DNA of 50,129 nucleotides, taken from contig VMSR01000001.1 in the NCBI GenBank assembly GCA_013792075.1, positions 1 to 50,129 on the forward strand, read 5' to 3'. Under the pieces are notes generated by a model. That model was not told the origin of the DNA. It did no database searches and saw nothing but the letters and a program-made list of their open reading frames with translations. This DNA comes from Desulfobacula sp. (lineage in GTDB: Bacteria > Desulfobacterota > Desulfobacteria > Desulfobacterales > Desulfobacteraceae). Of the stretch, positions 22,539-36,599 are shown piece by piece. Made by a program: the position numbers and the translations under genes. Numbering within the stretch: position 1 is the stretch's first letter; each line of letters opens with the position of its first letter.

Positions 22539-22772
22539 TCAATTATCTTTCAGAACCGTCTCAAGATATTGTTCCGATTCAATGACCTGTTCGACATCTG
22601 TATAATAATAGCTGCTGGGATTAATCCCGCTTTCATCCAAGGATAAGGACATGTGATTCAGGGGCTCAAAGGAACGGGTAACCCATGGAAGCAGAACATA
22701 GACAAAAGCAAGCGTGAGACCAAATACGAGAATAAACCGGGTGATTCGCTCCGTTAAACTTTTTTCTATCAT
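22539..22772 (-). CDS. Small single-pass membrane protein next to the YeiH-like exporter
   Basis: A 77-residue protein with one hydrophobic helix at about residues 12-30 (RFILVFGLTLAFVYVLLPWV) and a polar, acidic C-terminal half. No family recognised. The start at 22772 is chosen because AAGGA lies about nine bases upstream; an earlier in-frame start at 22829 would overlap the intergenic hairpin. It follows the exporter gene by 68 bases on the same strand, with a hairpin between. It could be an accessory subunit of the exporter; that is inference from position only. Confidence 0.6.
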   Translation of the reverse strand: MIEKSLTERITRFILVFGLTLAFVYVLLPWVTRSFEPLNHMSLSLDESGINPSSYYYTDVEQVIESEQYLETVLKDN

Positions 22773-22793
22773 CAGTTCCAATCCTTTTTTAAG

Positions 22794-22819
22794 GGCCGGG
22801 AGCAATAACGCTCCCGGCC
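22794..22819 (-). other. Intercistronic hairpin between exporter and small membrane gene
   Basis: Perfect ten-base GC-rich arms (22794-22803 and 22810-22819, GGCCGGGAGC and its complement) with a six-base loop AATAAC. No T-run follows on either strand, so it looks less like a terminator than like an mRNA-stabilising or translation-limiting structure between two cistrons. Confidence 0.5.
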
Positions 22820-22840
22820 GGTCAAACAATATAAATCCTA

Positions 22841-24580
22841 TTAGATCTTTGCAGTGATTTCAGGGAATACCAGGTAAAACATGACATATGCCATGACAAG
22901 GGTCAGGACCAGATTAAAACTCTGGCCGCAGACATAAAGAATCAGTGGTTTTCCGCCCTTGAAATATTTTGCCAGCTCCCGGAAGTTGGTTGACAGACCG
23001 ATGGCGGCAAAAGACAAGGCAAAGAACCATCCGCGGAAGAGACGGGTTCCGCCGCGAACCACTCCCTGATCCAGCATGGCTGTTCCCAGATCCTTGCCAA
23101 GACTGCTGTCAAGTATGGAAAAAACAATGGAAGCTGCAAGAAATCCCAGGACAAATTTTGGGAACCGGTTCCAGATTTCCATTGCGCCAACTTCCCGACC
23201 GGCTTCGCGTTCCACTTTCATGGTCCAGTACATGGCAACACAAAATGCCGTTACACCGATAAGAACATTTTGAATCATCTTGATGGTGGCGGCAACATAC
23301 ATGGCCTTTTCACCCAGGAATGCACCGGCTGCTGCAACCGCTCCTGTTGCATCAATGGTTCCGCCCATCCAGGCACCTCCCAGGATTTGCGGCATCCCCA
23401 CTGCCTTAATGAAGGCCGGCATGGCAATCATCATAATCGCAGTAAACACAAGAGACAAACCAATGGAAAGGGTTAGTTCCTCTTTTTTGGCACGACATGC
23501 AGCAGCAGTGGCAATGGCGGCTGAAGTCCCGCACACGGACATGTCTGCAGAAATAACCATATTAAGGGTCTTGGAAGGCATCTTCAATACTTTCTGACCA
23601 AAGATATAGGTACTGATCAGAACGATGGGCGTAACAATCCAGGCCACAAAGATGCCCGGAACACCAATGGCAACAATCTTGTTAAAGAGCACTTCCGCAC
23701 CCAGCAGAACCAGACCGGTTTTGATGAAAAATTCCACTTTGCAGGAAGGCAAAACCCATTTGGGAGTACCAAGGGTATTGGCGATAATCATTCCCAGAAG
23801 AACACCCCAGGCTTCGGCACCGATGCCATATTGTTTGGAAATGGCCTGGCCGCCCAAAAGATAGGCAAGGGTTGCCACAAGAAATACAATGAGAAACCCT
23901 TTAAAAAAACCAAAGGCATTTTCGCCCATCATTTTGACACCAAATCCGAAGATCAAGGCCAAAAAGACAAAGAGGCCCAGGAGGGTGGGGAAATAATTAT
24001 AGGCTTTGTTTCCGATTTTTTTCTTGGCATCACTGACAGCTCTATGGTCCTCCCGCCATTCTGCAATCTTGCCTGCAGCAGCATCATTCAATGCGGTGTC
24101 TTTATAGGATGCAAGGGCTGCGGCCTTTTCGGCAGTCACTGCAGCCCCAAAGCTTTCTGCCTCAGCCGCTTTGGCCTTATCATATTTGGGCATGGCTTTT
24201 TCATCTTTTGCCTTTGCCTGGGCATCTGTCTGGATAAAGGCATCCATGGGATTGGTTTTCCATGAACCTGGTTTTTTTGTCCAGTGGGATACAAATTTAC
24301 CAAAAGCAGATCCCGACGCCTTTAATTTTTTCTTTTCATCCTGGGCTTTATACCATGCTGTTGTTTTAAACGGGGCGTTGGCAGATTCAGTTGCCTGGAT
24401 TTGATCTGCTGTCCCAATTTTTTTTTCAAATTCTGCTTTTGGCCCATAATTAAAGTATGCAAACATGCATACGGCAATGATGGCAAATCCAAGCCATATC
24501 GCCAGAAAGTCCTCTTTTTTCCATAGATCGGACCACTTGCTCTGACCGTGATCGACAACTAGGCTGCTGTCCTGTGCCAT
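22841..24580 (-). CDS. YeiH-family putative sulfate/anion exporter with N-terminal extension
   Basis: A 579-residue membrane protein. Residues from about 195 on are the Cons_hypoth698/YeiH (UPF0324) transporter with about ten helices and the family stretches [23 protein letters not shown] and [18 protein letters not shown]. Ordinary members have about 350 residues. This one adds an extra N-terminal helix (about 24-43) and a 150-residue Lys/Ala-rich polar region (48-195). Members are annotated as sulfate or sulfite exporters with little direct proof. The start at 24580 has CAGGAGG upstream; a longer frame to 24673 would run into the promoter. A sigma-54 promoter (24657-24672) and two palindromes (24733-24774) lie upstream, so expression is probably inducible through the divergent two-component system. 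Confidence 0.85.
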
Positions 24581-24656: not shown

Positions 24657-24672
24657 AGCAATTCGCATGCCA
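24657..24672 (-). promoter_or_regulatory. Sigma-54 (-24/-12) promoter of the YeiH-like gene
   Basis: Minus-strand TGGCATGCGAATTGCT matches the TGGCAC-N5-TTGCW consensus with the invariant GG and GC pairs at exact spacing. Transcription would begin near 24646, giving a leader of about 65 bases before the exporter ATG at 24580. An NtrC-type activator gene lies in the divergent operon. Confidence 0.75.
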
Positions 24673-24732
24673 TAAAATATCTGTATATAACATATTGATA
24701 ATATTGTTTTTTCAGAAAAAAGTTTGAATGAA

Positions 24733-24774
24733 GTGCATCCTTAAGGATACACTTGAATGTTCTTAAGGATCCAC
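24733..24774. promoter_or_regulatory. Two tandem CTTAAG-centred palindromes, candidate enhancer sites
   Basis: Site 1 (24733-24752, GTGCATCCTTAAGGATACAC) is a near-perfect 20-base palindrome. Site 2 repeats TCTTAAGGATCCAC at 24761-24774. The two CTTAAG centres are 22 bases apart, about two helical turns. They lie roughly 95 and 120 bases upstream of the predicted sigma-54 start site, the normal distance for an NtrC-type activator, and also just before the sensor kinase gene, so autoregulation is possible. Confidence 0.65.
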
Positions 24775-24849
24775 CTTTTACACCCTGGCTTGCAATTTAC
24801 TCCGGAATCTCCTATGGATATAACCTGGGGTATCAACAGGAGGCAGCCC

Positions 24850-27282
24850 ATGTTTACACAGACACTTAATTTAAGATTTAAATTCATCACAGGTCTTGTC
24901 ATGTTTGCGCTGGCATTGGGCCTGTGCATCTCCATTATTATGTATTTTCACTTTAACTCTCTTCTTGAATCGGAAATCAGTCAGCGGTCAAGAATGCTTT
25001 TGGCCCAATCCAATGCCCTCCAGGATTATGTAAAAACACAATTGCGGCCGGAAATGTTTAATATTTTGCCCGAAGGCCGGTTTGTTTTAAAGGCCATGTC
25101 CTCTTCCTATATCTCCAGGCAGGTCATGGCCAATTTAAACATCCAGGACGCGTCAGGATACCATTATCGAAGGGTTTCCATAAAACCCCGAAACCTTGAA
25201 TCCAAAGCAAATCCCTTTGAAGCCGGTCTTATTGAAATATTCAAGAAAGATAAAACCCTTAAAATATGGGAAGACAATACCCTGGTTGACGGCAAAGAAT
25301 ATCACATGGTGGCAAGGCCGGTCACCTTCACTGAATCCTGCATGCAATGCCACGGCGATCCAAAGGATGCACCCAGAGAACTCATTGAAATATACGGCGG
25401 CACCAATGGGTTTAATTATACCCTGAACGATGCTGCCGGGGTTGTTGTTGCCGGGTTTCCAGTGGATATGATCCGGGAACCGGCCATGAGCCTGACCCTG
25501 CATTATTTAAGCTTGTATATTCTGGGGATATTCCTGTTTGCAGGTCTTATCAGCCTTTTTTTTGACCGCCTGGTCATGAAAAACCTCCATGAGCTCACCC
25601 GGATTTTCAGAACCCGGTTTTCCGGGGAACAGGAACAGCGGATTATCGATCGGCTGGGTCAGAAAGATGAAATCGAAGGGCTGATCGAGGGAGTTGAAGA
25701 ACTTGCCACCTGCCTTTCCTCCGCAAGAACACAACTTGTGGAACATGCCCAGACGCTTGAGAAAAGAGTGGAAGAACGAACCCTCACACTCCATACAGAA
25801 TCAGAACGGCATCTGGCAGATGTCCGCCTCTTTGTCAGCCTGCTCTCGGGTTTTACAGGAATACAAAATACCCTGTCCTTAATTACCGGTGTTCTGGAAA
25901 ATGTCGGCAACCGGTTCAAGGCAAAACAGGTTGTCTATTATTGTACTGTGGCTTCGGAAAACCAGTATTCCTGGAAAAAGGATGCTGTCACAGATACGCT
26001 TGATCAAGCGATCAAGGAGTTGTTGTGGAAAAATGAGGTGCTGTTTGAAAACAATAAATTGTATGTTCCCATAAAGTCCCAGGAAAGTCATTGGGGCATC
26101 CTTTGCATTTCCTGGAATTCACAACCCGATCCCCAGGACCTGGATCCTGCAATTCTTCTGGCCCTGGGTCTTCAGATCGCAATTCTCATCGAAAATATCC
26201 AGGCTTTTTCAAATATCCGCTTCCAGAACGACATGCTCCAATCCATATTTGAAGGCATTTCCGACCCGCTGCTGCTGATTGACCTTGACGCAAATATCAT
26301 TATTGCCAACAAGGGTTGCGACACGATTTTGCCGGCCGAAAGCCGGTCCGAAAGGGAAAAAGAACTTAAATCTCTGCTCAGTCATCCATCCTCGGCAAAC
26401 AAAAACAACACCATACTGGACCTTGTCATAAAAAAAGAAACCCCGGTCAGTCAGGAAATCCGTACCCCTGAAAACCGCTATCTTTCCGTTGATCTCTACC
26501 CGTTACCCCACCAGGATCAAAGAAGCTTAAGAATCGTTGTGTATATAAAAGATATCACACCGGAAAAACAGATGATTGAACGAATGCAGCAGACAGAACG
26601 CTTGAGCGCCATTGGTAAAATGGCAGCAGGAATTGCCCACGAAATAAACAATCCCCTGGGTGTGATCCGGTTGTACACGGATCTTGTCAAGGATGCGGTG
26701 GAAAATAAAGACACACATGCCGACATTGATGTGATATCAAAACACACCCGGTCGGTTCAAAAAATCATCCAGAACCTGTTGAACCTGTCCCGGCCCAAAC
26801 AGGTGATATCCGGCCGCTGCAGCATCAATACGGTGGTAAGATCTGTTTTTGAAATCTTTAAAACCCAGGGTGCCTCCAAGCGGATTACCATTGAATTTGA
26901 TCTGGAAGCGTCTCTTCCGGATATAAAATGTGATGCTGCCATCCTGGAGCAGATTTTAACCAACCTGTGGTTAAATGCATTTGATGCCCTTACCGATCAG
27001 GGGAAAATTCACATCCACACCCGTATGTCACCGGAAAAACAGGTGGCATTCTGTATTGAAGACAACGGCCAGGGTATCTCCGAAGAGGTTATTTCCCATA
27101 TATTTGATCCCTTTTACACCACAAAGAAAATCGGAAAAGGAACCGGACTCGGACTTTCCGTGGTGTATGGGTTCATCACCGAACTTGGCGGAAGAATAGA
27201 GGTAAAAAGCGATGATACCACACGATTCTGCATCTTCTTTCCCATTGCCGAACACGAGACAAATTTAAGGACACTCCCATGA
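24850..27282 (+). CDS. Haem-c sensor histidine kinase (DUF3365/Tll0287-like)
   Basis: An 810-residue membrane kinase. TM1 is at about 10-35. A periplasmic DUF3365/Tll0287-like sensor follows with a c-type haem motif C164-x-x-C167-H168 (ESCMQCHGDP). TM2 is at about 218-238, then a HAMP-like linker with a coiled coil, a GAF-like region (about 350-460) and a PAS-like region (about 465-575). HisKA has phospho-acceptor H597 (AAGIAHEINNPLG), and HATPase_c has DNGQGIS near 738 and GTGLGLSVVYG. The start at 24850 is taken because ACAGGAGG precedes it; an ATG at 24757 lies inside the palindromes. Its stop overlaps the regulator start by four bases. It probably senses redox state or a haem ligand such as NO, CO or a sulfur species; the ligand is unknown. 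Confidence 0.88.
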   Translation: MFTQTLNLRFKFITGLVMFALALGLCISIIMYFHFNSLLESEISQRSRMLLAQSNALQDYVKTQLRPEMFNILPEGRFVLKAMSSSYISRQVMANLNIQDASGYHYRRVSIKPRNLESKANPFEAGLIEIFKKDKTLKIWEDNTLVDGKEYHMVARPVTFTESCMQCHGDPKDAPRELIEIYGGTNGFNYTLNDAAGVVVAGFPVDMIREPAMSLTLHYLSLYILGIFLFAGLISLFFDRLVMKNLHELTRIFRTRFSGEQEQRIIDRLGQKDEIEGLIEGVEELATCLSSARTQLVEHAQTLEKRVEERTLTLHTESERHLADVRLFVSLLSGFTGIQNTLSLITGVLENVGNRFKAKQVVYYCTVASENQYSWKKDAVTDTLDQAIKELLWKNEVLFENNKLYVPIKSQESHWGILCISWNSQPDPQDLDPAILLALGLQIAILIENIQAFSNIRFQNDMLQSIFEGISDPLLLIDLDANIIIANKGCDTILPAESRSEREKELKSLLSHPSSANKNNTILDLVIKKETPVSQEIRTPENRYLSVDLYPLPHQDQRSLRIVVYIKDITPEKQMIERMQQTERLSAIGKMAAGIAHEINNPLGVIRLYTDLVKDAVENKDTHADIDVISKHTRSVQKIIQNLLNLSRPKQVISGRCSINTVVRSVFEIFKTQGASKRITIEFDLEASLPDIKCDAAILEQILTNLWLNAFDALTDQGKIHIHTRMSPEKQVAFCIEDNGQGISEEVISHIFDPFYTTKKIGKGTGLGLSVVYGFITELGGRIEVKSDDTTRFCIFFPIAEHETNLRTLP

Positions 27283-28673
27283 ACTCTTTTTCCATACTGG
27301 CTGTGGACGATGACCCGGATTTTTTAAAGGGGTTGATCCGAAATCTTAAGAAACAATTCACACAAATACGATTTCTGGGTGCATCTTCAGGAGAGGAAGC
27401 CCTTGACCTTCTCCGCCGCGAACATATCGGGGTCATGCTCACCGATCTGCAGATGCCTGAAATATCCGGCCACGACCTCTTGCTCAAAGGGCTTGAAATA
27501 AATCCCCATCTGTGTGTGATCATGATCACCGGTCACGGCACGGTTGAAAATGCAGTCAGTGCACTCAAAAAAGGTGCCTGGGATTTCATCTCCAAACCCG
27601 TGGACAGGGAAACCCTTTACCATACGGTTGAGCGGGCCATGGAACATTATACCCTTGCCAGCGAGAATAAGCGCTTGCAGGAGATTATCAAATCCCTGAG
27701 TTCAGACCTGACGGCCCATTGGGAAAGCCGGGTCATGAAACAGCTCCGTGAAAAGATGAGCGCCATTGCCGTAACAGATTACACCGTGCTTGTCACCGGA
27801 GAGTCCGGATGCGGCAAAGAATACATTGCCAAGGCCATACACGCTTTATCCAAAAGAAAGCAGGATGCCTGCCATTCCCTGAATTGCCCGGCCATCCCCG
27901 AGCAACTTCTGGAAAGTGAGCTGTTCGGCCATGTAAAAGGGGCGTTTACCGGAGCCGAACGAAACCGGGACGGCTTTTTCATGATGGCCAACAAAGGCAC
28001 CCTGATTCTGGATGAAATCGGGGACATCGGTCTTCCCATCCAGGCAAAGCTACTCAAGTTTCTCCAGGACAAGGAGGTCAAACCAGTAGGGTCCAGCCTT
28101 TCAAAAACAACAGATGTCCGTATCATGGCACTGACCAACCAGAATCTTGAAAACAAAATCCTGGATGGCAGTTTCAGGCAGGACCTGTATTACCGCTTGA
28201 ACGTTCTTTCCGTGAAAGTGCCCCCCTTGAGAGAAAGAAAAGAAGATATCCCCATGCTGGTAAGGGAATTTGTCTTGAATACCTGTGGTGAAATGGGCAT
28301 CCCCCCCATGGAGATTGATCCTCTGGCGCTCAGCTATCTTTCCCGACAGGCCTGGCCCGGCAATGTAAGGGAATTGCTCAATTATGTCCGCCGCATGGTG
28401 GTCTTTTCAAATGGCAAGACCATTGACCTGGACCTGATCAATCTTGTGGAGGGGGATCTTGAAACCACCCTCCATCCCGAAGGAATTCCTTTGTACAAGG
28501 ATGCCAAGAAACAAGCTTTAGATCTCTTTTCTAAGAACTACCTGACCCGCCTCCTCGAACAAACCCGGGGCAATATCTCTGAAACCTCAAGACTCAGCGG
28601 CATTGAACGGGCATCGATCCAGAAAATCATCAACCGCCTGCACATGGACATATCCCGATTTCGGTCCACCTAA
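27279..28673 (+). CDS. Sigma-54-dependent NtrC-type response regulator
   Basis: A 464-residue regulator. The receiver domain has phospho-acceptor D56 (VMLTDLQMPE) and conserved acidic DDD near residue 10. The AAA+ domain has Walker A G174-ESGCGKE181, the sigma-54 contact loop GAFTGA at 221-226, Walker B TLILDEIGD and the arginine-finger region. A Fis-type helix-turn-helix at the C-terminus (GNISETSRLSGIERASIQKI) is seen. It overlaps the kinase gene by four bases and converges with the NifX-like gene, their stops overlapping by four bases. The sigma-54 promoter and palindromes at 24657-24774 are the obvious targets. Confidence 0.95.
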   Translation: MNSFSILAVDDDPDFLKGLIRNLKKQFTQIRFLGASSGEEALDLLRREHIGVMLTDLQMPEISGHDLLLKGLEINPHLCVIMITGHGTVENAVSALKKGAWDFISKPVDRETLYHTVERAMEHYTLASENKRLQEIIKSLSSDLTAHWESRVMKQLREKMSAIAVTDYTVLVTGESGCGKEYIAKAIHALSKRKQDACHSLNCPAIPEQLLESELFGHVKGAFTGAERNRDGFFMMANKGTLILDEIGDIGLPIQAKLLKFLQDKEVKPVGSSLSKTTDVRIMALTNQNLENKILDGSFRQDLYYRLNVLSVKVPPLRERKEDIPMLVREFVLNTCGEMGIPPMEIDPLALSYLSRQAWPGNVRELLNYVRRMVVFSNGKTIDLDLINLVEGDLETTLHPEGIPLYKDAKKQALDLFSKNYLTRLLEQTRGNISETSRLSGIERASIQKIINRLHMDISRFRST

Positions 28674-29182
28674 TCTGCTGCACCCCTGGAACCACTGCCA
28701 CGTCCCATACCCATACCACGGACAGAACCGCCCATGCCACAGCCCCCGCGGCCCATCCCCCTGCCGGAACCGCCCATGCATCTGGACTGCCCTGTCTGGC
28801 TGTCAGGTTCTTGGCTTTTGTATGACAGGTTTTCTACCTTTTGTTTTCCAGAAGCCCCCAGGGGTGCTGCTTTTGTTTTATATCGCTCTATGGCTGATTC
28901 CACAGTGCCTGCCTGGTCGCAAATCACCTGAATTTTTTTTTCAGTAAAGACATCCATGGCATTGGGTCCACACCGGCCTGTTATCACCAGATCAACCCCT
29001 TTATCGATTAAAAATGCTGCAGATCGAATACCGGCCCCCCCGGTTTGGTCGGCATTTTCATTTTCGAATGCCGCCAATTGCATATCCTTTGTGTCAACCA
29101 CGACAAAAAACCGGCATCGCCCAAACCGTGGGTCGATCTGTGCGGTGATGTCTTTTCCAAGCGAACTGATCGCAATTTTCAT
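28670..29182 (-). CDS. NifX/NifB-like dinitrogenase iron-molybdenum cofactor family protein
   Basis: A 170-residue protein. Residues 1-about 110 form the NifX/NafY-like fold (MKIAISSLGKDITAQIDPRFGRC; GAGIRSAAFLIDKGVDLVITGRCGPNAMDVF). This fold binds metal-sulfur cofactors or acts as a scaffold; many anaerobes have copies unrelated to nitrogenase. The C-terminal 35 residues are rich in Gly, Met, Arg and Cys (GMGRGGCGMGG), a possible metal-binding tail. AAGGAGG lies just before the ATG. No nif gene is in the window, so a role in Fe-S or Mo/W cofactor handling is more likely than nitrogen fixation. Its stop overlaps that of the convergent regulator. Confidence 0.85.
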   Translation of the reverse strand: MKIAISSLGKDITAQIDPRFGRCRFFVVVDTKDMQLAAFENENADQTGGAGIRSAAFLIDKGVDLVITGRCGPNAMDVFTEKKIQVICDQAGTVESAIERYKTKAAPLGASGKQKVENLSYKSQEPDSQTGQSRCMGGSGRGMGRGGCGMGGSVRGMGMGRGSGSRGAAD

Positions 29183-29633: not shown

Positions 29634-31475
29634 ATGAACCCCTTTGATCTGATCAAAAATTTTCCCATCCGGTACAAGCTGCTGTTTATTTATTCATTCT
29701 GCTTTCTGATCATCATAAGCCTGTCCAGCCTGATCATCTATTCTATTGTCAAAAAAAATGTGGAAAAAAATATCGAAAGCGAATTGAAAAACTCCACTTC
29801 GGCAATCCTGAACACTGTCAAGACGGCGGTGTCGGTTTCCATAAAAAATCGGCTGCGGGGAGTGGCCGAAAAAAACTATGATATTATCCAGCACCTCTAT
29901 GACCGGCAAAAGGCTGGAGAGATTAGTCTGGAAGAGGCAAAGGCAAGGGCCACGGATATCATCCTCTGCCAGAAAATCGGTATCACCGGATATGTCTGTA
30001 TCCTGGACGGCAAAGGCCGGGTCCTCAAACACCCTAAAAAACCTTTGGAAGGGCTGGATATTTCCGATCACAGGTTTGTCCAGGAGATGATCGCCAAAAA
30101 AAACGGGTATATCGAATATTCATGGAAAAATCCGGAAGACGCTGCAGCCCGTCCAAAGGCCTTGTATATCAATTATTTCGAACCCTGGGACTGGATGATC
30201 ACGGTCTCCTCCTATCGAAAAGAGTTTTCACAGCTGGTGGAAATCAATGATTTTAAAGAAAGCATCTTGGGCCTGCGCTTCGGGAAAACAGGGTATTCCT
30301 ATGTCATGGATACCCGGGGCAATATCATCATCCATCCTGAACTGGCCGGGGTCAATATCGCCAGGGACGCAAGGTTCTCGGATCAGTTCTTCCGCACGAT
30401 GCTGGAAGAAAAGAATGGAAAGCTGATCTATTCCTGGAAAAATCCAGGTGATGAAAAACTGCGAAAAAAACTAGTGATCTTTAATTATATCCCGGAATAC
30501 GAATGGATCGTTGCCTCATCCAGCTATCTGGATGAATTTTATTTTCCCCTGGGCATCATTAAGCATATCATCATTCTGGTGGGGGTGGCGGCCCTGATTG
30601 TCTTTATCCCCATCTCCTTTGTCTTAAGTTCCACCATCACCAAACCCCTGCAATCTCTGATGGCCCGGTTTAACCAGGATATTGCCGGTGGGTTTTCAAA
30701 CAGGTCTGTGAAAATGGAATCCAGTGACGAAGTGGGACAGCTCACTTTTTATTATAATTCCTTCATGGACAAACTTGCCACCTATGACCGGGAACTTTTA
30801 GCAGAAATAAGGGATCGCCGTCTGGCACAGGAGGCCTTGAAAGAAAGTGAAGAAAGATACAGATCCGTCATGGAAGCCGTGCCTGACCCCATTGTGGTCT
30901 ACGACATGGATGGCCTTGTCATTTATATGAACCCAGCCTTTACAAAGGTGTTCGGATATACCCTTGAAGACAGCCTGGGCAAGACCATGGACCATTTTGT
31001 ACCCAAAGCCCATTGGAAAGAGACCATGAAGGGCATCGGCACCATCCTCAAGGGAGAAATTCTGCCCCGGGTGGAAACCAAACGAAGGGCAAAAAGCGGC
31101 CGGCTCATCGATGTCACCACCCGGGGCTCGGTTTTTCGGGACAAAAACGGGAAGCCCTTGGGATCGGTGATCACCCACCGGGATATCTCCGAGGTCAAGC
31201 GCCTGGAAAAGGCCATCATGGAGATTGGAGAAAAGGAACGCCAGTCCATCGGAAATGACCTGCACGATGACCTGTGTCCCCATTTGATCGGGATTGAAGG
31301 TCTGACCAAGGTATTAAAAAAAAGGCAGCAGGTCAATCGCCTGAGGCTGAAAGGCTTTCGGACCAGATTACAGCGCTTATCAAGGAGGCCATCTCCAAAA
31401 CCCGGCACCTGGCACGGGGGCTTTGCCCGGTCTACTATAACCACGGACTGGTCTCTTCCCTTGAGGATCTGGTGA
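29634..31475 (+). CDS. Tandem-Cache PAS sensor kinase, N-terminal part (frameshifted)
   Basis: The reading frame gives 613 residues, of which about the last 50 are out of frame. The domains are TM1 (about 14-38); two Cache-like modules starting near residues 118 and 219 that look like a duplication (both contain TGY, HP, a KNG-x-YSWKNP pattern and a W-x-I/V end); TM2 (about 306-330) and HAMP; PAS at about 405-520; and HisKA_3 with H544 (GNDLHDDLCPH). The frame is lost at an A8 run (31316-31323). A one-base backward shift continues KAAGQSPEAERL... directly into the ATPase part at 31472-31846. GGAG precedes the ATG. It partners with the LuxR-type regulator at 31936. It may be a real mutation, a sequence error or slippage. 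Confidence 0.85.
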   Translation: MNPFDLIKNFPIRYKLLFIYSFCFLIIISLSSLIIYSIVKKNVEKNIESELKNSTSAILNTVKTAVSVSIKNRLRGVAEKNYDIIQHLYDRQKAGEISLEEAKARATDIILCQKIGITGYVCILDGKGRVLKHPKKPLEGLDISDHRFVQEMIAKKNGYIEYSWKNPEDAAARPKALYINYFEPWDWMITVSSYRKEFSQLVEINDFKESILGLRFGKTGYSYVMDTRGNIIIHPELAGVNIARDARFSDQFFRTMLEEKNGKLIYSWKNPGDEKLRKKLVIFNYIPEYEWIVASSSYLDEFYFPLGIIKHIIILVGVAALIVFIPISFVLSSTITKPLQSLMARFNQDIAGGFSNRSVKMESSDEVGQLTFYYNSFMDKLATYDRELLAEIRDRRLAQEALKESEERYRSVMEAVPDPIVVYDMDGLVIYMNPAFTKVFGYTLEDSLGKTMDHFVPKAHWKETMKGIGTILKGEILPRVETKRRAKSGRLIDVTTRGSVFRDKNGKPLGSVITHRDISEVKRLEKAIMEIGEKERQSIGNDLHDDLCPHLIGIEGLTKVLKKRQQVNRLRLKGFRTRLQRLSRRPSPKPGTWHGGFARSTITTDWSLPLRIW

Positions 31476-31846
31476 CCAATACCCAAATCCTGCACCAGGT
31501 CGTCTGCCGGCTGGAAGCCGATGACCGAATAAAAATAGAAAATCACATGGTGATCATCAACCTCTACCATATTGCTGGGGAGGCTGTACGCAATGCCATC
31601 CGCCACGGTCATGCCACAACCATTTGCATTTCCATGGAAATCAGGGGGGACCAATTTCGGTTTATCATCCAGGACAATGGCAGAGGAATGGACCCGGAAA
31701 AGGATCACAGCGGCATGGGACTGCGGATCATGAACTACCGGGCCAAGATTGTGGGCGCCTCCCTCATGATCTCCTCGGACAGAAAAAAAGGGACCCGGAT
31801 AAAACTGGCCATGCCCACAGCGGCACTGGCAGACCATTTGGTCTGA
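31472..31846 (+). CDS. C-terminal HATPase part of the same kinase
   Basis: This 124-residue frame has the histidine-kinase ATPase motifs: N box (GEAVRNAIRHGHATT), G1 (IQDNGRGMDPEK) and G2 (GMGLRIMNYRAKIVG). It has no phospho-acceptor domain of its own. In-frame coding continues upstream of its GTG to the A8 run, without a ribosome site at the GTG. It is therefore the end of the kinase begun at 29634, not a separate gene. The full product would be about 736 residues. Confidence 0.8.
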   Translation: MTNTQILHQVVCRLEADDRIKIENHMVIINLYHIAGEAVRNAIRHGHATTICISMEIRGDQFRFIIQDNGRGMDPEKDHSGMGLRIMNYRAKIVGASLMISSDRKKGTRIKLAMPTAALADHLV

Positions 31847-31935: not shown

Positions 31936-32607
31936 ATGCCGGATAAAAAAAAAATACTGCTGGTTGAAGATCATCCCATATTCAGGCTGGGCCTTGCCGA
32001 GCTGATAAACCAGGAAGAAGATCTTAGCGCCTTTGGCAAGGCCAGGGATGTGGACCAGGCCATTGTGGAAATCGAAACAATGGCCCCGGACCTTATTATC
32101 GCGGATATCTCATTGCAGGATTCCGATGGAATTGACCTTGTAAAATATGTCAAGCTCCACCACCGGCAGATCCCGGTTCTGGTGTTGTCCATGCACGATG
32201 AATATCTCTATGCCCAGCGGGCCCTTGCCGCCGGAGCCCGTGGGTATATCATGAAACAAGAGGCCATGGAATCGGTTGTAACCGCCATCCACCATGTGCT
32301 GGAGGGGAAGATATACCTCAATGAAAAGGTCAAAGAGCATATTCTTTCCACCATGTCCAGTCCCCAGGAAGCCCGGGAAAAAACCCCCATTGACCGTCTA
32401 GCAGACAGGGAACTCCAGGTGTTTAAAATGATCGGCAGGGGATTTTCCTCCCGGGAGATTGCAGAAAGACTGTTCTTAAGCATCAAGACCATTGGTACCT
32501 ACCGGGAACGAATCAAGGAAAAACTCAACCTCAAACATGCCAATGAACTGGTTCGGTGCGCCGTTCATTTTGAAAAAACCGGCCAGATCAGTACCCGGCA
32601 AAGCTAA
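31936..32607 (+). CDS. LuxR/NarL-type response regulator
   Basis: A 223-residue regulator. The receiver domain has E11-D12, phospho-acceptor D57 (LIIADISLQDSDG) and the conserved Lys in GYIMKQ. The C-terminal helix-turn-helix (about 150-215) has ADRELQVFKMIGRGFSSREIAERL and IKTIGTYRERIKEKL, typical of NarL/CrbR proteins. It lies 89 bases after the kinase. The next gene is an acyl-CoA synthetase followed by a sodium:solute symporter. In Vibrio the CrbS/CrbR system controls acs and actP, so by analogy this regulator likely controls those genes. That is inference. Confidence 0.93.
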   Translation: MPDKKKILLVEDHPIFRLGLAELINQEEDLSAFGKARDVDQAIVEIETMAPDLIIADISLQDSDGIDLVKYVKLHHRQIPVLVLSMHDEYLYAQRALAAGARGYIMKQEAMESVVTAIHHVLEGKIYLNEKVKEHILSTMSSPQEAREKTPIDRLADRELQVFKMIGRGFSSREIAERLFLSIKTIGTYRERIKEKLNLKHANELVRCAVHFEKTGQISTRQS

Positions 32608-32778: not shown

Positions 32779-34533
32779 ATGTCGTTGGAAAACACATACA
32801 GAGAAGCAATGGCCCTCAATGGTATCCAGGATATGGGACAGCGTGAGACCCAAGCAAAAGCGTTCTTCGAGAGGCTGAATAAATCCGAACTGCCAAAGAA
32901 GTTTAACTGGGCTTCAGAGGTTTTTGAAGGGATACATGTCAAAGAACGCGGTGATCAACCGGCCCTTATCTGGACAGATATGAATACAGATGCCGAACAG
33001 CAGTTTACGTATAAAGAACTGGCTGCCAACGGAAATAAGTTTCTGAATTTTCTACGCAAAAAAGGGGTTGAAAAAGGGAACAACCTGTACATGCTGACTC
33101 CCATTGTTCCTGAAACATGGTTTGCAACCTTTGCCGGCATCAAGGGCGGCCTTGTCTCTGTGCCTACAGCGACCAGCATGACGGAACGAGAAATCCAGTT
33201 CCGGTTTGAAGCATACCCGCCGGATGTCATCATTGCCTTTGAAGGGTTGACCGATCTGGTGGATGATGCCCTGAAAAAAGCCCAGTGTACCCCCAAGGCA
33301 AAGATTGTTCTGGGGCAAAAAGAGGGATGGACTCCCTATACGCAAATTGCCCAAGAAAAACCACAAGCCGAAGCTGCGGATGTGGGCAATGAGGATGTCC
33401 TTTTCTGCTTTTTTACCTCCGGAACCACAGGACTTCCCAAACGGGTCGGGCACTCTGCTGTTTCATACCCCTTAGGACATCTGTCCACCGCCATCATTAT
33501 CGGGCTGGAACCCGGAGATGTCCATCATAACCTGAGTGCACCCGGATGGGCAAAATGGGCATGGAGCAGCTTTTTCGCCCCTTTTAACATGGGGGCCACT
33601 GCCACGGGTTTCAATTTCACGGTATTGGATATTAAAAAATACATCTCTGCCGTGGCCAAGTATAAAGTCAATTCTTTCTGTGCTCCACCAACGGCATGGC
33701 GCGCCTTTGTCGGTCTGGATCTTTCAAAATACGATTTGAGTGCCATGAAATATTCCATAAGCGCAGGCGAGCCCCTGAATCCGGAAGTTATTGACCAGTG
33801 GAGAAAAGGAACCGGCACTCAAATCCGCGATTTCTACGGCCAGACCGAATCCACTGCCATGATCGGAAACCCGCCCTGGATGGAAAAAAAGATGCGTCTG
33901 GGGTCCTTTGGGTATCCCTCCTACATGTACGACGTCATCCTGGCCGATGATGAGGGCAGGCAAATTACAACACCTGACGAAACCGGTCACATTGTGGTTC
34001 GCCTGAGCAACTGGCGGGCCATCGGCCTGTTCCAGGAATACATTGACAATGAGGCAAAAACCGCAGAAGCATTCCAGCACGGCCTGTATTACACGGGTGA
34101 CAAGGCCACCTTTGACAAAGACGGATACTGGTGGTTTGTCGGTCGTTCCGACGACGTCATCAAATCTTCGGATTTCCGTGTGGGGCCCTTTGAAGTGGAA
34201 AGTGCGTTAATAGAACATGTCGCCGTCATGGAAACCGCAGTTGTAGGGGTTCCTGATCCCAAACGGCATCAACTGGTCAAAGCCTTTGTTATCCTGACCC
34301 AGGGCAATGAGCCGTCCAGGGAACTTGCCCTGGAATTGTTCAAGCATACCATTGAGGTGCTGGCCAAATTCAAGATCCCCAGAATCATCGAGTTTGTAAC
34401 CGAACTGCCCAAGACCATCAGCGGCAAAATCCGCAGGATCGAGTTGAGGGAAAACGAAAACGGCAAAAAACAAGAGAACCCCAACGAATATTTCTATCAT
34501 CAGTTCCCTGAACTGAGTTCCAAGAAAAAATAA
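32779..34533 (+). CDS. AMP-forming acyl-CoA synthetase (medium-chain/ACSM type)
   Basis: A 584-residue adenylate-forming ligase that activates a carboxylic acid to its CoA thioester via an acyl-AMP. The P-loop-like A3 motif is at about 213-226 (TSGTTGLPKRVGHS). A5 is DFYGQTESTAMIGN. A7/A8 are YYTGDKATFDKDGYWWFVGRSDDVIKSS. The catalytic lysine is K550 in ISGKIRRIEL. Resemblance is closer to ACSM and acetyl-CoA-synthetase-like ligases than to long-chain enzymes. The substrate cannot be fixed from the motifs. CGGAGG stands before the start. It is followed by a small membrane protein and a symporter, suggesting uptake coupled to activation. Confidence 0.9.
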   Translation: MSLENTYREAMALNGIQDMGQRETQAKAFFERLNKSELPKKFNWASEVFEGIHVKERGDQPALIWTDMNTDAEQQFTYKELAANGNKFLNFLRKKGVEKGNNLYMLTPIVPETWFATFAGIKGGLVSVPTATSMTEREIQFRFEAYPPDVIIAFEGLTDLVDDALKKAQCTPKAKIVLGQKEGWTPYTQIAQEKPQAEAADVGNEDVLFCFFTSGTTGLPKRVGHSAVSYPLGHLSTAIIIGLEPGDVHHNLSAPGWAKWAWSSFFAPFNMGATATGFNFTVLDIKKYISAVAKYKVNSFCAPPTAWRAFVGLDLSKYDLSAMKYSISAGEPLNPEVIDQWRKGTGTQIRDFYGQTESTAMIGNPPWMEKKMRLGSFGYPSYMYDVILADDEGRQITTPDETGHIVVRLSNWRAIGLFQEYIDNEAKTAEAFQHGLYYTGDKATFDKDGYWWFVGRSDDVIKSSDFRVGPFEVESALIEHVAVMETAVVGVPDPKRHQLVKAFVILTQGNEPSRELALELFKHTIEVLAKFKIPRIIEFVTELPKTISGKIRRIELRENENGKKQENPNEYFYHQFPELSSKKK

Positions 34534-34961: not shown

Positions 34962-36599
34962 ATGCCAGCTGAATACGCATTGAGCAATGTCTGGATAGGA
35001 CTCGGGGTTGTGGGAACCCTGTTCATGATCTTTTATTATGTGGGCTACACCTCCTCCAAAAAAACCGTGTCGGACGAGGATTTCTACGCTGCCGGTTTTT
35101 CCATAGGCCCTGTGACCAACGGACTGGGCATGGCCGCCACCTGGGCCAGTCTTGCCACCTTTTTAGGGGTAATCGCCTTGATTTTGAAGCTCCAGGTTCC
35201 CTTTGTCTATCTGTGGATCCAGTGGGCCATCTCCATCCCTTTGCTCACCCTTCTTTACGGCACCAGTCTTCGCCGGATGAAAGCCTTTACACCGGCCACC
35301 TTCATCCGGCAGCGCTACGGCAAACCTTCCACCATCGTTATCGTCTGCTGGATGATCCTGATCATGGTCATGTATGCCCTGGGCCAGATGATCGGACTGG
35401 GTCAGGCCTTTGAGTTGCTCTTCGGGGTTCCCTACAACACGGCCATTATTGTGGCAGGTCTTGCCACGGTCGGCTTTATCACCGTGGGCGGCATGTACGG
35501 CGCCTCCTACAACGCCGCTTTCCAGATGGTGGTCATGACCATTGCCATGGTGGTTCCCATGGGCGCCATCATGAAGGCCATGGGCTCTTCGGGCTGGTGG
35601 TTTCCGCCGCTTGCTTACGGCGATATGGTTCCGGACATGATGAAAAACATTCCCACCTTTTTTGACATGAAATATGATTTCAGGTGGTATTTTGCCCTGA
35701 TTCCAGCCTTTACCTTGGGGCCTGTGGCCCTTCCCCATCTGGCCATGAAGGTCTTTACCGCTTCTTCGGTTAAAAGTGCAAGGTGGGCCGTTGTCTGGTT
35801 CTCCCTTTTCCTGGGACTGCTTTTTTCCGGCACCTATGTGGTGGGATTTGCAGGCAACTTCTTTACGGCCACCACTGGAAAAGTCATTGCCAAGGCAGAT
35901 CAAACCCTGTTGATCCTAAATGTATTTTACAACCCGACCCTTGTGGCCGCCTTTGTCATGGGCGGCGCCGTGGCAGCAGGGCTTTCCACCATCGGCGGAA
36001 ACCTCATGGCCATTGCAGGACTTGTGGGCTCGGATCTCCTGGGCATTATTGCACCGGACATGGCCTCTTCCAAAAAAATGAGATGGGGATATGCGGCCCT
36101 TGCCATGGGCGGTTTTCTGGCCATCCTCATGGCATTTAGTCCTCCGAAATTTCTGGTCACCAGTATTTTGTGGGCCTTCGGCCTTCTGGCCACCACTGCA
36201 ACACCGGCCATTCTTCTGGGTGTCTGGTGGAAGGAAGCCAACAAACTGGCACTCATCATTTCCTCTTTGTTCTGCGGGTTCCTTTATATCCTGATCTCTC
36301 CCCATGTATTTCCGTCAATCGTTGTGGGAAAAGGTCTTGTGGCTGCCCTTGGCATGTCCGGCGGCATGGTCACCATTCCCTTAAGCTTTGCCATGTTTAT
36401 TCTTTTGTCCATTGCTTTTAACCGCATATCTGTTTTCAAGGCCTATGCCCCCACACTGGCGGACAAAAAAGTCATTGACCGCATCCACGGCTGGGGTACG
36501 GATTATGAAGAAACCCGTTACAACGGCATCACCGTACCGGTGATCATTTCCGCCATCTGTATCGGCATATTTTGCTGGGGCCTTGTGCCCTGGACCTAA
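34962..36599 (+). CDS. Sodium:solute symporter (SSS family, ActP-like)
   Basis: A 545-residue inner-membrane transporter with about 13 hydrophobic helices. Family stretches include GFSIGPVTNGLGMAATWAS, YGTSLRRMKAFTPATFIRQRYG near 105-125, and GAVAAGLSTIGGNLMAIAGLV near 340, as in ActP-like members. It probably takes up acetate or another monocarboxylate with Na+. TAAGGAG lies before the ATG. It is in one operon with the acyl-CoA synthetase and small subunit and ends before a strong stem-loop. Confidence 0.9.
   Translation: MPAEYALSNVWIGLGVVGTLFMIFYYVGYTSSKKTVSDEDFYAAGFSIGPVTNGLGMAATWASLATFLGVIALILKLQVPFVYLWIQWAISIPLLTLLYGTSLRRMKAFTPATFIRQRYGKPSTIVIVCWMILIMVMYALGQMIGLGQAFELLFGVPYNTAIIVAGLATVGFITVGGMYGASYNAAFQMVVMTIAMVVPMGAIMKAMGSSGWWFPPLAYGDMVPDMMKNIPTFFDMKYDFRWYFALIPAFTLGPVALPHLAMKVFTASSVKSARWAVVWFSLFLGLLFSGTYVVGFAGNFFTATTGKVIAKADQTLLILNVFYNPTLVAAFVMGGAVAAGLSTIGGNLMAIAGLVGSDLLGIIAPDMASSKKMRWGYAALAMGGFLAILMAFSPPKFLVTSILWAFGLLATTATPAILLGVWWKEANKLALIISSLFCGFLYILISPHVFPSIVVGKGLVAALGMSGGMVTIPLSFAMFILLSIAFNRISVFKAYAPTLADKKVIDRIHGWGTDYEETRYNGITVPVIISAICIGIFCWGLVPWT

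Follow-up and report, generated by a model that had tools for sequence, protein, structure and literature searches.

Is a c-type haem sensor kinase, encoded with an NtrC-type regulator and divergently from a PSE-type exporter, part of one circuit with that exporter, and if so, what might it sense and expel? We analysed this arrangement in 50,129 nucleotides of Desulfobacula sp. (GCA_013792075.1, contig VMSR01000001.1, positions 1 to 50,129; the window), in which the following features are relevant.

22539-22829, minus strand: small open reading frame (ORF; 96 aa from TTG) with one hydrophobic stretch, 11 bp past the exporter stop
22841-24580, minus strand: PSE-type exporter (579 aa), PF03601 core at residues 227-548
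~24646, minus strand: predicted sigma-54 transcription start (geometry from -12 alone)
24657-24672, minus strand: -24/-12 element TGGCATGCGAATTGCT, spacing GG-N10-GC
24734-24751, minus strand: predicted main enhancer palindrome TGTATCCTTAAGGATGCA, centred at -70 from the -24 box and ~-97 from the predicted start
24756-24773, minus strand: predicted weak second site TGGATCCTTAAGAACATT, 22 bp off, with the same left half-site
24850-27282, plus strand: sensor histidine kinase (810 aa; Tll0287-like/sCache_heme, PAS_4, HisKA, HATPase_c)
27279-28673, plus strand: NtrC-type response regulator (464 aa), its start overlapping the kinase stop

An earlier sequence-only reading had placed the whole circuit at 24657-28673; the promoter, kinase and regulator do fall inside this segment, whereas the exporter gene is located beyond its edge.

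Sensor kinase, regulator and exporter

The kinase sensor domain (residues 39-204) carries the haem motif CMQCH (C164-H168) and matches PF11845 (Tll0287-like) at 3.6e-36 in a Pfam profile search (125.2 bits; cutoff 24.1). The AlphaFold2 (AF2) model of residues 14-209 (pLDDT 91.6) has Tll0287 (PDB 5b82) as its best PDB match (E 5.4e-9); profile, CxxCH and predicted fold together place the domain among the sCache_heme sensors. No cysteine outside CxxCH is conserved at 80% in 55 sensors, which, along with the signalling fusion, matches by sequence the NO-binding type of sCache_heme and not its redox type (PMC12889525); Met 69, 83 and 93 are mostly conserved in the same set. The regulator combines REC (PF00072), a sigma-54 AAA+ domain with GAFTGA (PF00158) and HTH_8 (PF02954), all above cutoffs, with a Fis-type helix reading GIERASIQK, and so has the complete NtrC-type sigma-54 architecture. 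The divergent operon is thus as first described from its two motifs. The genome also encodes the haem-c assembly family PF01578 and dsrA.

The exporter matches PF03601 at 3.2e-44 in the same type of search (151.5 bits; cutoff 24.5). It had been called YeiH-like, but its score of 71.3 bits against TIGR00698 (cutoff 232.6) rules out a canonical YeiH. Its start was set at ATG 24580 on the basis of an AGGAGG just 5' and alignment with the nearest orthologue (L189), and its N-terminal part comprises a helix (residues 23-44) followed by a predicted helical domain (48-186; AF2). Among solved structures, a sequence search returned only an antibody chain (E 0.45), and fold comparison returned weak CPA/AT matches (E > 0.01), the core of the model being poorly predicted. 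The small ORF more likely starts at ATG 22772, giving 77 aa, and matched no Pfam or NCBIfam profile. BLAST placed a homologue less than 800 bp from the exporter at 54 of the 60 distinct named loci (identity to those at L149 and L150, 57% and 49%, respectively), and on sequence grounds it is a conserved operon partner of the exporter.

Promoter and enhancer

TGGCAY-N5-TTGCW has a single match in the 50-kb window, upstream of the exporter and with the exact spacing reported before (0.21 expected; at least one match in 18 of 100 window shuffles), and none of 200 shuffles of the exporter upstream region reached the score of the element. The predicted start sits 66 nt ahead of the exporter ATG. With GG-N10-GC close to the gene and one PF04552 match (rpoN) in the genome, the element qualifies as a sigma-54 promoter; in the nearest orthologue it reads TGGCATGGGATTTGCT. 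A sigma-70-like promoter was looked for ahead of the kinase operon, and none was found.

Behind the promoter, CTTAAG cores lie at 24740-24745 and 24762-24767, 22 bp apart and centred at ~-97 and ~-119, in agreement with the ~95 and ~120 given originally. The description of both as palindromes holds for the first site, AAGTGTATCCTTAAGGATGCACTT, in which 11 of 12 pairs are complementary over 24 bp, but not for the second, which keeps the left half TGGATCCT and is self-complementary over CTTAAG only. The 5.3-Mb genome contains a single copy of CTTAAG-N16-CTTAAG and, even when up to 3 mismatches are allowed, a single copy of GTGYATCCTTAAGGATRCAC. A matrix trained with its own family left out scored the main palindrome at 15.6 (p=0.005); the family matrix gives no match in the window at the second site, whose register is nevertheless common to L189, L106, L121 and, roughly, L062. 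In L189, both sites are in register and the half-site TGNATCCT is kept twice. The conserved family enhancer is an 18-bp palindrome, TGCC-N-CC-T-N2-A-GG-N-GGCA, in which TGNNNCC-N4-GGNNNCA is the conserved element; CTTAAG was ruled out as the recognition core, given that the L189 cores read CTAAAG and CTTGAG.

Linkage and conservation

A haem-c kinase is encoded within 6 kb of the exporter in 55 of 159 distinct exporter loci, compared with 26 of 159 for any other histidine kinase. The linked loci comprise 27 divergent arrangements, 18 with the kinase downstream and 10 with it upstream, and retention of the link in three gene orders favours a functional connection over a frozen order. With the kinase as starting point, sensor-covering matches were found in nine other genomes among the matches listed, and eight of these have an exporter homologue at most 0.9 kb away; in the ninth (G045), the kinase begins at a contig end.

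The regulatory sites follow this linkage. A strong -24/-12 element is present in 26 of 32 linked loci (absent in six) versus 11 of 65 unlinked ones, and a palindrome at p<0.05 (families left out) in 26 of 28 loci versus 2 of 9 unlinked loci with the element; given that linked loci are related, these counts are not independent. The same applies to the held-out named loci, in which promoter and palindrome co-occur in 18 of 23 linked versus 3 of 37 unlinked cases (Fisher 3e-8), or in 17 of 22 versus 2 of 31 (Fisher 5e-8) once exporters at least 90% identical to training are removed (five near copies in all; two missing exporters either lacked a BLAST partner at E 1e-50 or counted as near copies). 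Conservation of the sites among orthologues had been set beforehand as a test that could refute the circuit, and it was borne out for the promoter and the 18-bp palindrome but not for CTTAAG.

Exceptions were observed in both directions. A strict -12 GC test was failed by 17 of 34 named linked loci and proved too strict (TTGAT, TTGTA or TTGGA occur in Desulfopila, Desulfobulbaceae, Desulfovibrio sp. A2 and others); after it was relaxed, six of the 34 still failed the joint promoter and palindrome test. L189 itself reached 5.7 in the relaxed joint test (threshold 8), with a palindrome p=0.06 in the strict-filter run. Unlinked L107 and L109 also carry promoter plus palindrome, and a search for both in L296-L301 (Nitratidesulfovibrio-group; short- and third-type) yielded none above thresholds. 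A correlation between regulator helix and half-site (Kruskal p=0.004, classes picked after inspection; L085, L102 (contig without regulator) and L113 (without site) omitted) did not hold up in the held-out set (mean 0.83 for 12 V-type and 0.67 for three A/P/Q-type loci; p=0.35; five further loci without a readable helix), and covariation was dropped as evidence.

Proposed circuit and alternatives

Given the conserved promoter and enhancer, the c-haem kinase and a motif unique in the genome, we consider it very probable that the locus is a sigma-54 two-component circuit that acts locally, probably on a single target, and in which the haem kinase and regulator switch on the exporter, in line with the self-contained circuit originally proposed. 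The periplasmic Cache domain of the membrane kinase, with its covalently bound haem, would respond to a ligand of the haem, NO being the likeliest, or to a change in redox, and the kinase would phosphorylate the adjacent regulator. The regulator would then oligomerize on the 18-bp palindrome and the weaker second site, centred at ~-97 and ~-119. By hydrolysing ATP, it would drive the opening step of sigma-54 RNA polymerase at the -24/-12 element, so that the exporter and its small partner are expressed. Phosphotransfer, DNA binding and activation are expected here from the protein families. Anion export would in this way depend on the ligand or redox state of the haem; the exporter would remove an inorganic oxyanion, for which sulfite is the best candidate.

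The strongest competing explanation, which we regard as possible but less likely than not, is that the kinase senses sulfide, sulfite, polysulfide or periplasmic redox and that the exporter shields the cytoplasm during a block in sulfite reduction or a shift in sulfur flux. The exporter family, which carries the annotation putative sulfate export, is linked to sulfite (PMC12880088), dsrA is present in the same genome, and the linked named loci belong mostly to Desulfo- lineages. A signal close to the cargo would also fit Desulfovibrio sp. A2, in which three of four exporter matches (~28-30% alike in the pairs compared) are each accompanied by a separate haem kinase. Against this, the sole ligand work found on a signalling sCache_heme describes slow NO release (PMC12889525), and the mostly conserved sensor methionines may, from sequence, be distal ligands.

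Other readings concern the target. The two-component pair could mainly control other genes, with the exporter as one target among several, much as DVU0539 also targets lactate-utilization promoters, DVU3025-3033 and others (in the passages available from PMC3333781 and PMC4641369); we consider this improbable, given that the kinase-exporter link holds across gene orders and that the window palindrome is unique in the genome at up to 3 mismatches, a search that weaker sites would escape. It is far less probable still that the CTTAAG repeats are a chance occurrence and that the regulator binds elsewhere or does not activate the exporter: the core does differ in L189, and of the two sites the second is weak, but the family-excluded matrix finds the palindrome at the same place and the orthologue keeps the half-site twice, in register.

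Implications

PSE/YeiH exporters and the newly described c-haem Cache sensors are both widespread and, in the literature consulted, mostly lack known partners. The finding of one haem-kinase family beside these exporters, together with a promoter and an enhancer common to the loci, suggests for each a role that can be tested. The circuit model predicts where the regulator binds and which gene it targets, narrows the possible signals and cargoes to a few, and is relevant to the way in which sulfate reducers withstand nitrite and NO. A broader scenario, speculative and on balance rather unlikely, is that periplasmic c-haem NO-sensing kinases, widespread in sulfate reducers, specifically serve PSE exporters belonging to at least two subtypes. 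In this scenario, they would make up a nitrosative-stress circuit by which sulfite is expelled once its reduction is blocked by NO or nitrite, and the exporter N-terminal domain and small partner may report exporter state to the sensor.

Comparison with known systems

Regulators of the NtrC/ZraR class combine REC, AAA+ with GAFTGA and a Fis HTH, and act from upstream sites on -24/-12 promoters. The window system has the same architecture and differs in sensor domain and target. On the sensor side, a signalling member of sCache_heme (DUF3365/Tll0287) binds NO with slow release (PMC12889525, a 2026 preprint), and shares PF11845, CxxCH, a signalling fusion and the absence of an axial Cys with the window kinase, whose modelled sensor has the same fold as Tll0287; the words sulfate, exporter and transporter are absent from that text. 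On the transporter side, Salmonella YeiH is required for sulfite resistance, and its gene is divergent from that of its regulator YeiE, as in the window; unlike here, YeiE binds sulfite itself, with no two-component or sigma-54 step (PMC12880088). The window exporter is also longer than Salmonella YeiH. Our literature search found no paper tying a haem sensor to PSE exporters, and neither 'export' nor 'YeiH' appears in the main text of a transcriptome study of D. desulfuricans with NO (PMC5701242).

The suggestion that no such system had been described was too strong, given that D. vulgaris DVU0539 and DVU0946 are sigma-54 response regulators controlling PSE-exporter operons (Rajeev 2011, PMC3333781; Kazakov 2015, PMC4641369; Trotter 2023, PMC10102598). 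In strain Hildenborough, DVU0540:0539 and DVU0542:0545 are divergently oriented, the latter encoding a PSE transporter as well as a 133-aa protein that has a membrane helix (PMC4641369, PMC10102598), and pDVU0542 is transcribed with either regulator in an E. coli reporter (PMC3333781, PMC4641369, PMC10102598); the activating conditions of DVU0539 are given as unknown (PMC6456213). As in the window, the regulator gene adjoins a sigma-54-controlled PSE operon, and the correspondence between the loci is drawn from gene order (related genomes compared: L234, L250, L296 and L298). The D. vulgaris systems share several targets, and their paralogous regulators have one motif in common, unlike the single-target appearance of the window, and their operons include Usp genes, unlike the window operon. 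The available descriptions of the DVU0539 and DVU0943-DVU0946 kinases contain no mention of haem that we found, whereas the window kinase has a haem motif; in Desulfovibrio sp. A2, loci similar to those of D. vulgaris carry a haem kinase, and DVU0539 and DVU0946 can be re-read as possible haem-sensor partners.

Gene layout and sigma-54 promoter

The window genome (5.3 Mb in 308 contigs, with dissimilatory sulfite reductase (dsrA) above the family cutoff) carries two gene pairs that diverge from approximately 24.7 kb, exporter and small ORF on the minus strand and kinase and regulator on the plus strand:

22539–22829, minus: small ORF with a hydrophobic stretch
22841–24580, minus: exporter
24672..24657, minus: -24/-12 element TGGCATGCGAATTGCT, exact GG-N10-GC spacing
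24850–27282, plus: histidine kinase
27279–28673, plus: NtrC-type regulator, start overlapping the kinase stop

The sequence-only reading had proposed a self-contained sigma-54 circuit at 24657–28673, an interval that holds the promoter, kinase and regulator and leaves the exporter just outside. The circuit itself appears to be real, given that sequence comparison bore out its domains, promoter and enhancer conservation. The exact -24/-12 spacing noted upstream of the exporter was confirmed for TGGCATGCGAATTGCT, which is the sole TGGCAY-N5-TTGCW match in the window (0.21 expected) and whose score was reached by none of 200 shuffles of its own upstream region. With the C at 24658 taken as -12, transcription is predicted to start at approximately 24646, giving a predicted leader of 66 nt to the exporter ATG at 24580. 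The two CTTAAG cores, which start at 24740 and 24762, are indeed 22 bp apart (centres at approximately -97 and -119). The whole genome holds a single copy of this pair, and a single copy of the full window palindrome even when up to three mismatches are allowed.

Convergent with the regulator, a Nitro_FeMo-Co (PF02579) protein with a Gly/Met/Arg-rich tail is encoded at 28670–29182, the two stops overlapping by four bases. A dCache-PAS histidine kinase lies in two frames at 29634–31846 (candidate causes are a frameshift or a sequencing error): the first ORF stops after an H-box-like NDLHDDLCPHL and the second frame (31472–31846) carries HATPase_c. Downstream are a LuxR-type regulator (31936–32607), an AMP-binding synthetase (32779–34533) and, by eye, a symporter-like ORF (34962–36599).

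A shared enhancer palindrome

Of 242 genomes from the order, 84 held an exporter relative, as did 123 of the 395 from the phylum. We fetched 100 regions, part of all matches (best first plus picks), four of which (L118–L121) were chosen for a kinase match. Setting aside L119 and L188 (copies of one region without an exporter) and dropping L095 and L114 (upstream sequence runs off the contig) left 97 loci including the window. A Tll0287-type kinase lay within 6 kb of the exporter in 32 of these ("linked" loci), and a strong -24/-12 element was present in 26 of the 32 versus 11 of the 65 other loci. Upstream of this element, kinase-linked loci have in common an 18-bp palindrome, the putative binding site of the regulator, which was significant in 26 of 28 loci using a matrix trained without the tested family. 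The 28 comprise L086, which has the regulator gene alone nearby, and the 27 linked loci whose element was usable; linked L066, L118, L120, L164 and L165 have no usable element and were left out. Among the nine unlinked loci whose element passed the same threshold, two had a significant palindrome; unlinked L107 and L109, whose elements fall just under it, carry one as well. The window site, TGTATCCTTAAGGATGCA, had a matrix score of 15.6 (p=0.005). Paired sites 19–22 bp apart occur in many loci, and those of L106 (-70/-92 from the -24 box) and L121 (-72/-93) are in the register of the window.

Among the matches listed, from which records very near the window are possibly absent, the nearest named exporter was that of Desulfobacterales bacterium RIFOXYA12_FULL_46_15 (L189; exporter 82%, kinase 72% and regulator 77% identical). 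Gene order at this locus is likewise divergent; the promoter (TGGCATGGGATTTGCT) is conserved, and so are two sites in the window register (TGAATCCTAAAGTTTCCA and TGTATCCTTGAGAATCT), which are too degenerate for the matrix threshold (5.7 versus 8). The locus retains the half-site TGNATCCT and has lost CTTAAG, so the proposed CTTAAG core gives way to the 18-bp palindrome as the shared element. Judged by sequence conservation, the enhancer is real, with a conserved element other than CTTAAG.

L107, L109 and L110 have no haem kinase nearby, yet carry -24/-12 elements and TGCA...TGCA palindromes ~100–139 bp upstream; the regulator in these cases may be encoded elsewhere in the genome. The window genome has a second long exporter (L094, G000:C221:1500-19500; 55% identical), where a strong -24/-12 element, TGGCATATTTATTGCT, is present but the family palindrome and, over the 18-kb stretch, a haem kinase are absent. 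Linked regulators of L065, L070, L077, L081, L082, L083 and L105 have GAFTNA, GAFTSA or GAFTDA in place of GAFTGA, and good -24/-12 elements are kept at their exporters.

Held-out loci in named genomes

Of 542 exporter loci in named genomes, the 80 best matches were examined; 79 were usable (L215 has no upstream sequence), and 34 of these are kinase-linked. Requiring a strict -12 GC, the element was found in 17/34 linked versus 4/45 unlinked loci; many that failed have TTGAT, TTGTA or similar at the right spacing. A relaxed joint criterion (near-consensus element plus a palindrome 55–240 bp upstream scoring at least 8) gave 28/34 versus 5/45. Removal of 19 loci identical to training loci left 18/23 versus 3/37 (Fisher 3e-8), and further removal of five exporters at least 90% identical to training left 17/22 versus 2/31 (Fisher 5e-8; 53 of 55 expected loci, 22 linked and 31 unlinked), p-values that overstate independence because the loci are related. 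The held-out linked loci that failed were L189, L195, L196, L214 and L219. The unlinked exceptions were L194, L197 and L249; L249, with a regulator gene 261 bp away, is on a 7.2-kb contig and L194 on an 8.5-kb contig, so the kinase may be cut off there. Conservation across orthologous loci, the check proposed with the original reading, was found for both promoter and palindrome, and the loss named there as contrary evidence did not occur.

Kinase–exporter linkage

A haem kinase lay within 6 kb in 55 of 159 distinct exporter loci, and any other histidine kinase in 26. CxxCH is present in all 55 linked kinases, which are divergent in 27 loci, downstream in 18 and upstream in 10; besides the window, 9/9 linked kinases scanned were Tll0287-like above the Pfam cutoff. 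In 54 of 60 distinct named loci, BLAST placed a homologue of the small ORF no more than 800 bp from the exporter. The same kinase/regulator type is linked to a second exporter type (ORFs of 478–583 aa, 28–30% identical over the match) in six loci: L180, L181, L182 and, picked for their kinase, L118, L120 and L121. In Desulfovibrio sp. A2, haem kinase and regulator lie beside three of four exporter matches: L296 and L298, which resemble the window type and one another at ~28–30% over matched parts, and a third of the window's own type (66%). A 131-aa partner of a third exporter type in this genome (L296:6251-6646) has a Biotin_lipoyl_2/HlyD-like match, hinting at a membrane-fusion-like accessory.

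Haem sensor and exporter

The AlphaFold model of the sensor (pLDDT 91.6) best matched Tll0287 among solved structures (5b82, E 5.4e-9), followed by GSU0935 (E 0.003). A 2026 preprint (PMC12889525) names this domain sCache_heme and reports covalent c-haem; there, a signalling-fused member without axial Cys released NO slowly, and a stand-alone member having one bound it weakly. No Cys outside CxxCH was conserved at 80% in the 55 linked sensors (at alignment positions occupied in the window protein), so by that criterion they match the signalling type; for this reason NO is, by analogy, our best guess for the signal of the haem kinase. Met 69, 83 and 93, present in 47/55, 54/55 and 49/55 linked sensors, could be haem ligands. 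The window genome has three PF01578 matches, making haem attachment possible.

The description of the exporter as YeiH-like holds for PF03601; its score fell below the cutoff for YeiH proper (TIGR00698). PF03601 transporters are described as relatives of CPA/AT transporters, occurring with 9 or 11 helices (PMC8396727). In the window protein, the PF03601 core begins at residue 227, behind an N-terminal helix (23–44) and a predicted helical domain (48–186), which in the long exporter type separates the first long hydrophobic helix from the second. The structure model is weak in the core, and fold comparison gave CitS and NhaP at E values above 0.01. In sulfate reducers, nitrite and NO interfere with the reduction of sulfite. 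Deletion of yeiH in Salmonella is reported to cause sulfite sensitivity (PMC12880088); evidence on the substrate is thus by analogy, coming from other systems and not the window protein.

Comparison with known systems

According to two studies of D. vulgaris (PMC3333781; PMC4641369), DVU0539 and DVU0946 recognise one motif, target DVU0542-0545, DVU0943-0946 and DVU2133-2132, and each supported transcription from pDVU0542 in E. coli; nine sigma-54 operons are said to encode TSUP or PSE transporters of unassigned substrate (PMC4641369). DVU0540:0539 and DVU0542:0545 (the latter Usp, PSE, 133-aa membrane protein, Usp) form a divergent pair, and molybdate phenotypes are tied to these genes in a third source (PMC10102598). 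At a similar locus in Desulfovibrio sp. A2, a Tll0287-like kinase and a regulator diverge from genes for a PF03601 exporter, a 131-aa protein and Usp; no leading Usp gene was observed. A second A2 locus (L250), with exporter, Tll0287-like kinase and regulator in one direction and no small-ORF homologue detected, may correspond to DVU0943-0946. By analogy, we infer haem kinases at these places in D. vulgaris itself. Among the open-licence PMC papers listed, no title or abstract start linked the haem sensor to PSE/YeiH exporters. The sequence-only reading knew of no described system with this arrangement; the circuit belongs to the sigma-54 two-component control of PSE exporters already known in sulfate reducers, and what is new is the link to the haem sensor, together with the shared enhancer.
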